NCBI RefSeq assembly: GCF_000337335.1
Contig: NZ_AOJN01000047.1
Location: 11,387 to 75,386, forward strand
Direction of reading: 5' to 3'
DNA: 64,000 nt
Source of the DNA: Halorubrum distributum JCM 10118
GTDB taxonomy: Archaea > Halobacteriota > Halobacteria > Halobacteriales > Haloferacaceae
Shown: one piece after another, positions 28,271 through 54,342 of the stretch
Position numbering within the stretch: position 1 is the first letter of the stretch
Layout: each line of letters begins with the position of its first letter
Translations under genes and position numbers: made by a program
The notes under the pieces: generated by a model
Database searches by the model: none
Told to the model about the DNA's origin: nothing
Seen by the model: only the letters and a program-made list of their open reading frames with translations

Positions 28271-28417
28271 GACAACAGGTAACAAGGTATTGGGCGTGAT
28301 AAAAGTCACGCCGATACGGTCGAAATAGGACGCTTGAGCGGTTCTGTCTGCCATGTGCCCGAATGCCCATCGGCGGCTACTAGTCCGTCGACGGCAGCGG
28401 AATCCACGACCGCTCGC

Positions 28418-28778
28418 TTATAAATGAGCGACTACACCTCGGCGATGAACACGACCAAACCTCAGCCGTTCGTTTATAAATTGGCGTCCGTGGATCGACG
28501 GCCAGCACCGCCAAAGCCCCGGCAGACCGTTTATGAATAGCTACTGGCGACTCCGCGATAGACACCTCCAAAGCCCCAGTCGCGAGGCGCTACGCGCCAC
28601 GGGCAACCGGCGGCTTCACCGTCGGTGACTGCCCCTTTGAGTCCCACCCGACCGCGACAGCACAGCACCTCATTCCTCCCCAGCCTCGTCGCTGGCGGCT
28701 GGCGCCGCCAGCGACTCCCTCGCGCGTGCTCCTCGCGCCCGAGGGGCGCTCGGAGGCACGCGCCACCGCTTAAAAATG
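28418..28778 (+). repeat. Dispersed structured element, copy A
   Basis: Three stacked units start with TTATAAAT (28418), TTTATAAAT (28473) and TTTATGAAT (28530), 55-57 bases apart, each followed by a version of CTCCAAAGCCCCAG (best at 28566-28579). Then come three hairpins: CAGTCGC/GTGACTG closing a G-rich loop just before CCCCTTTGAGTCCC; GTCGCTGGCGGC/GCCGCCAGCGAC (about 28688-28713); and GCGCGTGC/GCACGCGC with inner GCGCCC/GGGCGC (about 28722-28763). It ends in CTTAAAAATG. The copies at 31908, 39719 and 53987 share the layout. No open frame is conserved, so a non-coding RNA or mobile repeat is likely. Confidence 0.75.
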
Positions 28779-28819
28779 AAGTCAGTAGCGTCAGCGTGGA
28801 TGACGGGTGTCGCGGCCGT

Positions 28820-31242: not shown

Positions 31243-31914
31243 ATGGACGAGAAGACCGCCGAACTCCGCGACCTGTTCGTCGACGCCACCGGCTCGGAGA
31301 CGGTCACCGAACGCCAGGAGGCGGAGCGGGGGACCCTCGTCAATCGCGACGACGCCAGCGAGGGGGTCCGCGACCTCGTCGCCGCGATGCGCGAACGGTA
31401 CGGCTTCTCGACGCCGCTCGACGACGCCGCCTACGCGCTGGTCGCCCGCGGCCGGTTCGACAACGCGGACGACGCGGCGATCGCGGCGGCGATCCGCGAC
31501 GCGCTGCCCGACACGGACGGCGACAGCGACGTCGATCCCGCGGACGTCGACGCCGAAACCGTCCGGAAGGCGCGCTTCGACCTCCACCTCGTGCGCGAGT
31601 CGGACCGGGAGGTCGACGCGGGCGGCGGCGACTCCGATCCCGCGTTCGAGTACGCCGACCTGAAGCGGCTCACCGCGGCCGGGAACTCCATCGTCGAGTG
31701 CGCCGAGGAGTTGGACGCACGGCCCGACACGGTCGCCCGGTACGCCGCCGTCGCGCGGACGGACATCGCCTCCACCCGGGCGAACGACCGCTTCCACGAC
31801 GCGTTCCGCGACCTCCTCACCGACGCCGACATCGAGGGGTCGCTCGCGAGCGACGCCCGCGAGGACGGCCTCCGCGAAGCGACCGAGGACATCGAGACGG
31901 ACGTTTCTTTATAA
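31243..31914 (+). CDS. Conditioned-medium-induced protein 4 (Cmi4)-like regulator
   Basis: A 223-residue acidic protein: MDEKTAELRDLFVDATGSET, VRDLVAAMRERYGFSTPLDD and a C-terminal helix-turn-helix-like part (DLKRLTAAGNSIVECAEELD, ARPDTVARYAAVART). This matches, from memory, haloarchaeal proteins named conditioned medium-induced protein 4. Two HTH-like segments suggest a DNA-binding role. The stop TAA at 31912-31914 lies inside the TTTATAA of repeat copy B, so the repeat forms the 3' end of the gene and may have altered its last codons (DVSL). Confidence 0.6.
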   Translation: MDEKTAELRDLFVDATGSETVTERQEAERGTLVNRDDASEGVRDLVAAMRERYGFSTPLDDAAYALVARGRFDNADDAAIAAAIRDALPDTDGDSDVDPADVDAETVRKARFDLHLVRESDREVDAGGGDSDPAFEYADLKRLTAAGNSIVECAEELDARPDTVARYAAVARTDIASTRANDRFHDAFRDLLTDADIEGSLASDAREDGLREATEDIETDVSL

Positions 31915-32259
31915 GTAGCAGCAGAGGCGCGGATGAGCGGTTCCGAAGCCCCAACCGCTCGCTTATAAATGACTGACTTCGAATCGACGGCGAACACCTC
32001 CAAAGCCCCAGCCGCGAGGAGCCCGTACGCTTGCTGCGCTCCTCGTCACTCGCTTCGCTCGTTCCTGCGGTGCTTGCGTCGCCTACGGACTCCTCGCGGC
32101 TGCCCCTTTGAGTCCCGCCCCACCGCACAGCAGCCGCACCTCACGCCTCCCCAGCCTCGTCAGTCGCCTCCGCTTCGCTCCGGCGACTGACTCCCTCGCG
32201 CGTGCTCCTCGCGCCCGGTGGGCGCTCGGAGGCACGCGCCACCGCGGTTCTGTTTATAA
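31908..32259 (+). repeat. Dispersed structured element, copy B
   Basis: Stacked TTTATAA (31908) and TTATAAAT (31963) units are 55 bases apart. CTCCAAAGCCCCAG follows at 31998. Hairpin 1 is CAGCCGCGAGGAG/CTCCTCGCGGCTG extended by CCGTA/TACGG after one mismatch, then CCCCTTTGAGTCCC. Hairpin 2 is GTCAGTCGCC/GGCGACTGAC. Hairpin 3 is GCGCGTGC/GCACGCGC with inner GCGCCC/GGGCGC. A TTTATAA at 32253-32259 closes it. The left box overlaps the stop of the Cmi4-like gene and the right box is the promoter of the Cas4-like gene. Confidence 0.75.
32253..32259 (+). promoter_or_regulatory. TATA box of the Cas4-like gene, supplied by repeat B
   Basis: TTTATAA is centred 28 bases before GTG 32284, the leaderless spacing. 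It is at the same time the right-hand boundary box of repeat copy B. Confidence 0.6.
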
Positions 32260-32283
32260 GCGAAGCCGCGGCCAGCCCGTCTC

Positions 32284-32979
32284 GTGACCCTCGTTCCGTT
32301 CAGCGACCTGGCCCGCGCGGCGTACTGCCCCCGACAGCTCTACTACGTCCGGCGCGACGACGAGCGGAGCGTCCCGCCGAAGGCGCGCGATCGCATCGAC
32401 CTCGCGTTCCGGTACGACGAACTGGTCGACGCGCCGGAGCGGGTGTTGCGGCAACTGCCGCTCCATCGGTCCCCGGCCGCGTACCGCCGGAATCTGGACC
32501 GACTCCGCGAGCGCGAGGCGTACGACTCCCTCGTCGACCCCGCGAGCGAGCGCGGGTTCCTCTCGGGCAAGGACTGCCACGGCACCGTTCACAAGGTGCT
32601 GGAACCGAGCGGAGAGCCCGACGACCCGGACGAGACGGAACCGTCGCCACCGCCGATTCCGACGCTGGTCTCGTCGGGCGAGCCGCCGGAGAACGGCGTG
32701 TGGGAGCCGCAGGCGGTGCGCGCGGTCGGGCTCGCGAAGGCGCTGGCGTGGGAGCGCGAACGCGAGATCGAGCGCGCGCTGGTCGAGTACCCCGCGGTGG
32801 GCGTCGTGCGCGAAGTCCGACTGACGCTGCGGAAGAAGGCCGCGTATCGCGAGGCACTCCGCGCGGCACGATCGATCGACGGCCCGCCGCCGCGCGTCGA
32901 CGACGACCGGTGTAACGTCTGCGACTACGCGGCCGAGTGCGGCACCCGGCGGCGGTCGCTGCGGTCGCTGCTGGGGTGA
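32284..32979 (+). CDS. Stand-alone Cas4/Dna2-like iron-sulfur protein
   Basis: A 231-residue protein with GTG start. Four cysteines are placed as in Cas4: Cys15 (AAYCPRQLYYVRR) and Cys210, Cys213 and Cys219 (CNVCDYAAECG), expected to hold a 4Fe-4S cluster. Between them lies a region with WEPQAVRAVGLAKALAW and VREVRLTLRKKAAY. The Asp-Glu-Lys nuclease residues are not obvious, so activity is uncertain. No CRISPR repeats or other cas genes are present. Stand-alone Cas4-like proteins are common in haloarchaea and may act in DNA repair or end processing. Confidence 0.7.
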   Translation: MTLVPFSDLARAAYCPRQLYYVRRDDERSVPPKARDRIDLAFRYDELVDAPERVLRQLPLHRSPAAYRRNLDRLREREAYDSLVDPASERGFLSGKDCHGTVHKVLEPSGEPDDPDETEPSPPPIPTLVSSGEPPENGVWEPQAVRAVGLAKALAWEREREIERALVEYPAVGVVREVRLTLRKKAAYREALRAARSIDGPPPRVDDDRCNVCDYAAECGTRRRSLRSLLG

Positions 32980-33656: not shown

Positions 33657-33737
33657 ATGACGCGAGACACTCGCGATCGTTCGGAGGATAGAGGAAGTCG
33701 CCTCGCGGCGGCTGGCCGCGAAATTCTCCGACGATAA
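33657..33737 (+). other. 26-codon upstream open frame in the citramalate synthase leader
   Basis: ATG 33657 is placed as a leaderless start and encodes MTRDTRDRSEDRGSRLAAAG plus REILRR before a TAA. It contains no run of branched-chain codons, so classical attenuation is not obvious. The frame of the downstream enzyme is also open here from 33661 but lacks a start, so this could instead be the frameshifted front of the enzyme gene. Confidence 0.3.
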
Positions 33738-33807: not shown

Positions 33808-35379
33808 TTGACCCGAACACCACTCACCGACCTCGACGAGGTACAGCTGCTGGACACCACCTTACGCGACGGCGAACAGATGCCCGGCGTCTCCCTGACG
33901 CCCGGCGAGAAGGTCGACGTGGCCCGCGAGCTCGACGCCGCCGGCGTCCACCTGGTCGAGGCCGGCTCGGCGTGCACCTCGGAAGGCGAGCGCGAGGCGA
34001 TCCGCCGCGTCGCCGACGAGGACCTCGACGCGACCGTGACGAGCTTCGCCCGCGGCGTGAAACGCGACGTCGACCACGCGCTCGACTGCGGCGTCGACGG
34101 CGTGAACCTCGTCGTTCCCGCCTCCGACAAGCACGTCGAGACGAAGGTGGGGTCGACCCGCGACGAGGTCGTCGAGACGACGGTCGAACTCGTCGAGTAC
34201 GCCAAAGAGCACGGCCTGTGGGTGGAGGTGCTCGGCGAGGACGGCTCGCGGGCCGACCTCGACTACCTCGACCGCCTGCTCGGCGCCGGCCTCGACGCCG
34301 GCGCGGACCGGATCTGCTACTGCGACACGGTCGGCGCGGCCGACCCCGAGCGCACCGCCGAAGTCGTCTCGCGGCTCGCCGACCGCGGCCCGACGAGCCT
34401 CCACACCCACGACGACCTCGGGTTCGGGCTGGCGAACGTCCACGCGGGGCTGGCGGCGGGCGCCGACACCGTCCACGGCACCGTCCTCGGCGTCGGCGAG
34501 CGCGCGGGCAACGTCGCCCTCGAAGAGGTCGCGATCGCGCTCGGCGAGTCGTACGACGTCGACACCGTCGAGCTCGAACGGCTCTACCGGCTCTGCCGGA
34601 CGGTCTCGGAGGCGACCGGCGTCGCGCTCCCGCCGAATAAGGCCGTCTGCGGCGCCAACGCCTTCGCCCACGAGTCCGGCATCCACACCGACGGCACGCT
34701 GAAGGACGGGACGATGTACGAGCCGTACCCGCCGGAGACGGTCGGCCGCGAGCGCCGGCTCGTCCTCGGGAAGCACGCGGGCCGCGCCGGCGTGAAGGCC
34801 GCGCTCGCCGAGCACGACGTGGCGGTCGACGACGACGAGCTGCGCGAGGTCGTCGCCCGCGTGAAGGAGCTCGGCGAGCGCGGCAAGCGCGTCACGGACG
34901 CCGACCTGCTCGCGATCGCCGACGACGTTCGCGGGCGCGAGCGCGAGCGACACGTCGAGCTCGTCGACCTCTCGGCGACCTCCGGGGGAAACCTCCCGAC
35001 CGCCTCGGTGCGGCTCCGCGTCGGCGACGACGAGCGCGTCGCCTCCGGCACGGGCGCCGGCCCGGTCGACGCGGGGCTTGAGGCGGTCCGCACGGCGCTG
35101 GCGGGCGGCGGGGACGGCGAGCGCGGGAGCGACGACGAACGCGACGGCGTCGCCTTCGAGCTCGACTCCTACCACGTCGACGCCATCACGGGCGGCACGG
35201 ACGCGGTCGTCACCGTCGAGGTCGACCTCTCGCGCGGCGACCGCTCGGTGAGCGTCTCGGCGTCGGACGCGGACATCACCCGCGCGAGCGTCGTCGGGAT
35301 GGTCGACGGGCTTGACCGCCTGCTGGCCGCGGAAGCGGACGCCGCGGACGCCGAGCCGGGCGCCGTCGCCGACGACTGA
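33808..35379 (+). CDS. cimA: (R)-citramalate synthase / isopropylmalate synthase family
   Basis: A 523-residue enzyme (TTG start). The TIM-barrel has LLDTTLRDGEQMPGVSLTP, metal ligands in LHTHDDLGFGLAN, and GVGERAGNVALEEV; the C-terminal LeuA-type regulatory domain spans about 390-510. It condenses acetyl-CoA with pyruvate (citramalate) or 2-ketoisovalerate (isopropylmalate). Haloarchaeal members of this form are usually called citramalate synthase, the entry to the threonine-independent isoleucine route. ilvA, the other route, lies 3 kb downstream. The TTG is used because no ATG or GTG is in frame upstream. Confidence 0.82.
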   Translation: MTRTPLTDLDEVQLLDTTLRDGEQMPGVSLTPGEKVDVARELDAAGVHLVEAGSACTSEGEREAIRRVADEDLDATVTSFARGVKRDVDHALDCGVDGVNLVVPASDKHVETKVGSTRDEVVETTVELVEYAKEHGLWVEVLGEDGSRADLDYLDRLLGAGLDAGADRICYCDTVGAADPERTAEVVSRLADRGPTSLHTHDDLGFGLANVHAGLAAGADTVHGTVLGVGERAGNVALEEVAIALGESYDVDTVELERLYRLCRTVSEATGVALPPNKAVCGANAFAHESGIHTDGTLKDGTMYEPYPPETVGRERRLVLGKHAGRAGVKAALAEHDVAVDDDELREVVARVKELGERGKRVTDADLLAIADDVRGRERERHVELVDLSATSGGNLPTASVRLRVGDDERVASGTGAGPVDAGLEAVRTALAGGGDGERGSDDERDGVAFELDSYHVDAITGGTDAVVTVEVDLSRGDRSVSVSASDADITRASVVGMVDGLDRLLAAEADAADAEPGAVADD

Positions 35380-39697: not shown

Positions 39698-39718
39698 ACC
39701 GGGCGAACACGGTGAGTA

Positions 39719-40080
39719 TTTATAAATAGATCCGCGGTGGCGCGTGCCTCCGAGCGTCCGAAGGACGTGAGGAGCACGCGCGAGGGACGCGGCGACCGGA
39801 GCGAAGCGGAGGGAGCCGCGAGGCTGGGGAGGCGTGAGGTGTGGTTGCTGTGCGGGGCGGGACTCAAAGGGGCAGCCGCGAGGCGGGCGCAGGCGACGTA
39901 AGCACCGCAGGGAGAGAGCGAGTGAAACGAGCGACCGACCGAGGAGCGCAGCGAGCGTGCGCCCGCCTCGCGGCTGGGGCTTTGGAGGTGTTCGCCGTCG
40001 ATCTACCGTCTGTTATTTATAAATGAGCGGCTGGAGTTCCGGAGGTAATTGTCATCGCTCCGCTAACACCGATTTATAAA
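39719..40080 (-). repeat. Dispersed structured element, copy C
   Basis: Same layout as copies A, B and D but on the minus strand: boxes TTTATAAA at 40073 and 40016 (57 bases apart), CTCCAAAGCCCCAG (about 39976-39989), hairpin 1 CAGCCGCGAGGCGGGCGCA/TGCGCCCGCCTCGCGGCTG, a second with CGCGGC/GCCGCG, and a third with GCGTGC/GCACGC and inner CGTCC/GGACG, ending at TTTATAAA 39719-39726. It sits between the 3' ends of two convergent genes (ilvA and the small gene at 40110). Confidence 0.75.
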
Positions 40081-53938: not shown

Positions 53939-53986
53939 CGAGGCTTAGTTCGGGTAGTCGGGTTCCTTTAAGATGTCATCGACAGC

Positions 53987-54327
53987 TTATAAATAGCTAA
54001 TAGCAGATCGGCGGCGAATAGCTCCAAAGCCCCAGTCGCTCGCTTATAAACGGCTGACAACAGATCGGCGGAGGATACCTCCAAAGCCCCAGCCGTGAGG
54101 CGGGCGCACGCTCGCTGTGTTCCTCGGTCGCTCACTCCGGTACTTGCTTCGCCTGCGCCCGCCTCACGGCTGCCCCTTTGAGTCCCACCCCGCACCGCAC
54201 AGCGCCTCACACCTCCCCAGCCTCGTCAGTCGCCGTCGCTTCGCTCCGGCGACTGACTCCCTCGCGCGTGCGACTCGCGGCCTCCGGCCGCTCGTCGGCA
54301 CGCGCCGCCGCAGTTCTATTTATAAAT
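53987..54327 (+). repeat. Dispersed structured element, copy D
   Basis: Stacked boxes TTATAAAT (53987) and TTATAAA (54044) are 57 bases apart, each followed by CTCCAAAGCCCCAG (54022 and 54079). Hairpin 1 is the 19-base CAGCCGTGAGGCGGGCGCA/TGCGCCCGCCTCACGGCTG, with T-A pairs where copies B and C have C-G. Hairpin 2 is GTCAGTCGCCG/CGGCGACTGAC; hairpin 3 is GCGCGTGC/GCACGCGC with inner GCGGCC/GGCCGC. It ends in TTTATAAAT (54319-54327). It lies between the 3' ends of convergent genes. Confidence 0.78.
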
Positions 54328-54342
54328 AGTTGCGCCGCCGCC

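Follow-up and report, generated by a model that had tools for sequence, protein, structure and literature searches.

In the haloarchaeal core promoter, a TATA box lies about 27 nt before the start of a leaderless gene. In Haloferax volcanii, 72% of the protein-coding transcripts are leaderless (PMC4983044). Several kinds of repeats are known from the spaces between genes. The bacterial REP, BIME and REPIN elements have no open reading frame, occur in about 100 or more intergenic copies, form hairpins and favour gaps between convergent genes over gaps between divergent ones; REP and BIME are defined as high-copy intergenic palindromes away from promoters, with a short palindromic unit of 20–40 nt and an association with a RAYT (REP-associated Y1 transposase) gene. 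The PATEs of the haloarchaeon Haloquadratum walsbyi (PMC3119063) are non-coding, have palindromes near their ends, lack a target duplication and exist as heterogeneous copies. MITEs are short, non-coding and numerous. Here we compare with these systems a repeat located between a Cmi4-like and a Cas4-like gene in a window of 64 kb (the whole stretch of DNA analysed), which is part of a 3.3-Mb haloarchaeal genome.

The Cmi4-like gene (31243..31914, + strand) encodes 223 amino acids ending in EATEDIETDVSL, and no Pfam family matched this protein. Homologues throughout the order conserve this protein, and its C-terminal residues directly before the stop, GLxxATExxETDVSx, hardly vary. The gene closes with GTT TCT TTA TAA, so that its last leucine codon and its TAA stop lie in a TTTATAA box at 31908–31914, which is also the first box of the leading unit of the repeat. 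A second TTTATAA, the 3′ box of the repeat, is found at 32253–32259. It precedes the GTG start (32284) of the Cas4-like gene (32284..32979, + strand, expected to be leaderless) by 28 nt when counted from the box centre and by 31 nt from its first base. Both box positions given in the original prediction, the first with the stop codon and the second 28 nt before the GTG, were confirmed from the letters. On both strands of the window TTTATAA occurs 20 times, compared with 0.05 expected from shuffles, and 16 of these 20 fall inside four copies of the repeat: copy A (about 28400..28783, +), copy B between the two genes (31908–32259, +, with a homologous core of 303 nt at 31943..32245), copy C (39717..40079, −) and copy D (53967..54328, +).

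The core is preceded by one to five units of 57 nt, each carrying TTATAA at a fixed place. The second unit of copy B has an internal TTATAAAT box at 31962..31970, 36 nt before TCCAAAGCC, while the first box is situated 33 nt before TCCGAAGCC, a distance of 36 nt in most orthologues. The 36-nt spacing to TCCAAAGCC that is seen inside arrays recurs for this first box in 7 of the 12 orthologous copies in the same orientation; as read from the letters, the first box of copy B is close to the register of the 57-nt unit. At the other end of the repeat, a survey of 70 copies from seven genomes found a TTTAWA box no more than 22 nt after the core in 39 copies, most often 7 nt after it, which identifies the last box as a common part of the repeat.

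Of 60 related genomes, 53 encode the downstream protein. Cas4 models match it only below their cut-offs, and its gene adjoins the Cmi4-like gene in most haloarchaeal families read; it seems likely to be a housekeeping nuclease rather than a CRISPR gene product. The spacer between the last box and the GTG (32260..32283, + strand), which contains GCGAAGCCGCGGCCA, is conserved in relatives with and without the repeat and belongs to the host sequence. Its form CGAAnCCGCGGCCA is kept across the genus and recognisable in other families; a regulator could bind there, or the spacer could be a downstream element of the Cas4-like promoter. Further along the window, an Rfam leuA-Halobacteria RNA (RF03001, 73 bits) matches at 33677–33729 (+), directly upstream of a 2-isopropylmalate-synthase-like gene at about 33808–35379.

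The original prediction was that insertion of the repeat had given the Cmi4-like gene a new stop and the Cas4-like gene a new promoter, and a comparison with relatives lacking the repeat had been proposed. We carried out this comparison. Three loci of the genus are free of the repeat, with gaps between the two genes of 93 nt (L015), 96 nt (L029) and 104 nt (L106). The order of the genes, the C-terminus of the Cmi4-like protein and the position of its stop are unchanged in these loci and in about ten other families. With or without the repeat, the protein ends in ETDVSL in every genus locus read in which its gene lies upstream on the same strand, and in outgroup families it ends at the matching residue (ETDVSF, DVSF, DVDF, DLSM and the like). 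Elsewhere in the order the two genes are still neighbours in most families, often with a gap of 32–118 nt. Each locus of an initial set of 30 from the genus has a TATA-like box between −28 and −31 relative to the Cas4-like start, and boxes in several outgroup families occupy a similar place (TTTAAAT at −31, TTTATAT at −31, CTTATAC at −28). The last box of copy B lies exactly at the position of this TATA-like box in repeat-free relatives. Hence the two boxes do coincide with a stop and a promoter, but neither signal is new: relatives without the repeat have the same stop in the same place and mostly carry a TATA-like box equally far from the Cas4-like start. The three repeat-free loci and the other families rule out that the insertion created either position. 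This comparison of loci shows that the stop and TATA-box positions of both flanking genes are ancestral, and we regard it as highly probable that copy B entered a gap between genes that were already neighbours.

Although no signal position was created, the bases at both positions look repeat-derived, and to this extent the proposal that the repeat reshaped its neighbours would hold. The box is a perfect TTTATA in 14 of the 15 genus loci with an abutting repeat end and in none of the 15 without (Fisher p = 2e-7, before allowing for shared ancestry), and in 13 of these 15 fused loci the Cmi4-like gene closes with TTATAA or TTATAG; these counts represent two clades, not 15 independent events. Promoter boxes without an abutting repeat are mostly CTTATCA, CTTATAC or CTTTTCA, and the Cmi4-like gene in the other adjacent loci of the genus ends in CTGTAG (three loci), CTATAA, CTTTAA and once TTATAA. 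Such an ending is very rare here: TTA accounts for 1.2% of leucine codons, TTATAA closes only 7 of 524 called genes, and the seven contigs concerned include six carriers whose Cmi4-like gene ends in this way. In L025 and L028 the repeat stops short of the GTG by 96 nt, and the promoter position is occupied by a separate CTTATA box. The same gap in L014, L016 and L017 contains the repeat in reverse orientation; its outer box falls on the promoter position, at the 36-nt spacing of the unit. The reversed repeat in these three gaps represents either a second insertion or an inversion. In a FastTree phylogeny of the two proteins the forward-fused, reversed-fused and distal loci form three groups, and the repeat-free L015 falls inside the reversed group (group support 0.999; weak within). 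Judged from these distributions, the terminal TTATAA boxes of the repeat probably replaced the bases at both signals without moving them, in two clades that carry the repeat in opposite orientation. A new stop and promoter would likewise account for the coincidence of the boxes with the signals and for the far commoner TTATAA/TTATAG stops and perfect TTTATA boxes of fused loci, but with stop, C-terminus and box distance equal in repeat-free loci of the genus and in other families, we consider this origin very unlikely.

Alternatively, TTATAA might be a true target site, ancestral at both stop and promoter, with the element inserting between or at such sites. The Cmi4-like gene of L029 ends in TTATAA, yet this locus has no repeat; such an ending can therefore occur without the repeat, or the one in L029 can be a relic. 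The occurrence of both orientations in the same gap, with boxes in register, would also fit a target site. L015, however, has CTGTAG and CTTATCA although it belongs to the reversed-element group of the tree, and the empty alleles elsewhere argue in the same direction. At three sites with empty alleles, whose flanks have diverged, neither a target duplication nor TTATAA was seen; for copy A, three relatives lack the copy and no target duplication is left. Insertion with duplication of TTATAA was rejected on these grounds, and an ancestral target site appears unlikely.

We return to overwriting in place. Besides L029, the outgroup loci L107 and L114 count against it, since each has a full box (TTTAAA or TTTATA) but no repeat; so does the finding that, where empty alleles were read at other sites, the junctions are not located at TTATAA. 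The repeat would have entered the gap between two long-standing neighbours, and its TTATAA ends were probably attached without a seam to the last codon and stop and to the TATA position, with short TTATA matches serving for recombination or deletion; presumably only those junctions survived that kept the protein and the promoter spacing. Since most protein-coding transcripts of H. volcanii are leaderless, the distance of 28 nt from box centre to GTG would suit a leaderless promoter, and by its spacing to the start codon the putative Cas4-like promoter fits this haloarchaeal type. It resembles the core promoter also in that the box position is kept in relatives, and differs from a plain one in that the bases of the box in fused loci match the repeat's own terminal box. 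The repeat may have given the Cas4-like gene a stronger TATA box without creating either signal. Taken together, ancestral signals whose bases were overwritten by a structured intergenic repeat are, in our judgement, very probably the best explanation of this locus.

The wider suggestion that such repeats rewire haloarchaeal genes as a mechanism found no support as a general rule. Among the 70 copies from seven genomes, L032 is the only one besides the copy-B orthologues in which the 3′ box lies 29–31 nt before a start codon; in other copies with a downstream gene on the same strand, the right-end box is 79–194 nt from the start. On the evidence of these 70 copies we rejected the idea that the right-end box generally serves as the promoter of the gene that follows. 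At L032 (G000:C39, about 75378–75682) a right-end TTTAAA box precedes an ATG by 29 nt, and this is possibly another fused promoter. Convergent genes flank 17 of the 41 gaps that contain a repeat, compared with 29 of 272 long gaps without one (p = 5e-6), and divergent genes flank 4 of 41 compared with 104 of 272 (p = 2e-4), counts that include orthologous, non-independent gaps and genes called by a simple codon model. The excess of convergent and the shortage of divergent gaps suggest that the repeat tends to avoid promoter regions; its placement, mainly away from divergent promoters, would be in the manner of bacterial REP and BIME elements.

A covariance model of helix P1 (described below) gave at least 139 matches in the own genome (E ≤ 0.01) and at least 113 in the one-contig genome G027 (E ≤ 1e-8), from which we estimate roughly 110–140 copies per Halorubrum-like genome. 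At E ≤ 1e-4 the model matched at least 156 of 243 genomes, and at least 58 of the 78 haloarchaeal genera sampled; its E-values are rough, and caution is called for with weak matches in distant, GC-rich genomes. Identity is 82.4% between orthologous copies, 82.5% between copies within a genome and 81.8% between unrelated copies. Orthologous copies are thus no more alike than others, which points to exchange between copies or to saturation. Plasmids and viruses were considered as vehicles of spread and set aside, as eight plasmid records had only partial matches, the best-matching plasmid copy coming from Halorubrum salinarum, in line with a genus that looks like Halorubrum, and no phage match was found. 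One copy on a Halobaculum plasmid retains the flanking motifs although its P1 stem differs in sequence. L102, a Halobaculum plasmid, has two model matches, at 1472–1591 and 1817–1937, on opposite strands and about 230 nt apart. In Rfam 15 no family matched any of four copies even at E ≤ 1, and a search of the open-access literature found no paper on this repeat family. The repeat is apparently a large undescribed feature of haloarchaeal genomes.

Three helices were recognised in the core, all given on the + strand. P1 (32003..32110) pairs AAAG CCCC AGCCGCGAGG with CCTCGCGGCT GCCCC TTTG, P2 (32158..32190) pairs GTCAGTCGCC with GGCGACTGAC, and P3 (32197..32239) pairs GCGCGTGC with GGCACGCGCC around an internal TC/TC loop. 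Covariation was 0.304 for P1 (0.093 shuffled) and 0.219 for P2/P3 (0.080 shuffled), with slid controls of 0.01–0.08; changes on both sides of a pair were seen in 9 of 21 pairs of P1 and in 10 of 22 of P2/P3. The inner stem of P1 is interrupted at regular intervals by pyrimidine–pyrimidine mismatches, and the TC/TC loop of P3 was invariant in 44 of 44 copies. Self-correction of a palindrome was judged an unlikely source of the covariation, because the mismatches are invariant and the surrounding pairs change. Fixed mismatches among changing pairs suggest that a folded single strand is under selection. The repeat may thus be kept as a structure-forming unit, either as folded RNA or as folded single-stranded DNA. 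More broadly, we tentatively propose, at somewhat less than even probability, an undescribed, order-wide family of selected structured nucleic acids with at least 100 copies per genome, invariant mismatch motifs, TATA-bearing units and TTATAA ends that can be grafted onto a stop or a TATA box.

As for the acting strand, the opposite strand folds better in 58 of 58 copies (mean −164 versus −135 kcal/mol), and the pyrimidine mismatches of the + strand correspond to tandem G–A pairs on it. Wobble pairs, as G–U on the + strand (167) versus A–C (34), come mostly from a few columns and leave the strand unsettled. The better folding of the opposite strand speaks against an RNA gene in which the TATA units drive a structured + strand RNA ending after P3, with the right-end TTTATAA as a terminator tail instead of a promoter. 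Such a gene would explain why TTATAA is placed exactly 36 nt before TCCAAAGCC in 29 of 44 units, and why three helices covary; as the right-end box is also missing from 31 of 70 copies, we find this reading rather doubtful. About equally doubtful is a non-autonomous mobile element that moves as folded single-stranded DNA by means of an IS200/IS605-type transposase, like the PATEs of Haloquadratum. Two Y1 transposase (Y1_Tnp) genes are present in the genome, the three empty sites lack a target duplication, and the near-terminal hairpins often have loops of 3 nt (P3, 24 of 39); on the other hand, the divergence of about 18% between copies, found for orthologous and other pairs alike, argues against a recent burst, and no conserved target oligonucleotide was found for the repeat.

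The claim of rewiring thus shrinks to the probable overwriting in place of two old signals, and the repeat itself is the larger find. Should it be transcribed, few structured RNAs known from an archaeon would exceed it in number, and if it acts as DNA, it would be an archaeal counterpart of BIMEs. Either way, the effect of such repeats at gene boundaries becomes testable. With Rfam RNA families it shares a conserved structure with compensatory changes, though the four copies searched match none of them. Like MITEs it is short, non-coding and present in many copies, but it lacks the target-site duplication, and apart from the palindromic TTATAAAT noted at both ends no clear terminal inverted repeat was seen. 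With PATEs, compared by their description, it has in common the haloarchaeal host, the heterogeneous non-coding copies and, in P1–P3, the palindromes near the ends without target duplication typical of PATEs and IS200/IS605 elements. It differs from them in its internal covarying architecture and in copies that are about 80–90% identical across the genus, some at orthologous positions. A PATE-type target oligonucleotide was not seen: the nearest candidate, the right-end TTTAWA, occurs in the 39 of 70 copies noted above, and TTATAA is absent from the empty alleles read. With the REP, BIME and REPIN elements of bacteria the repeat shares the copy number, the hairpins, the lack of an open reading frame and the preference for convergent over divergent gaps, and it consists of high-copy intergenic palindromes away from promoters. 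It is archaeal, however, and instead of a short palindromic unit it has a core of about 300 nt with three helices and 57-nt TATA-bearing units. As to a RAYT gene, the analysis found the two Y1_Tnp genes of the genome. In its spread the repeat resembles both PATEs and REP/BIME elements, and it matches only part of the definition of either.
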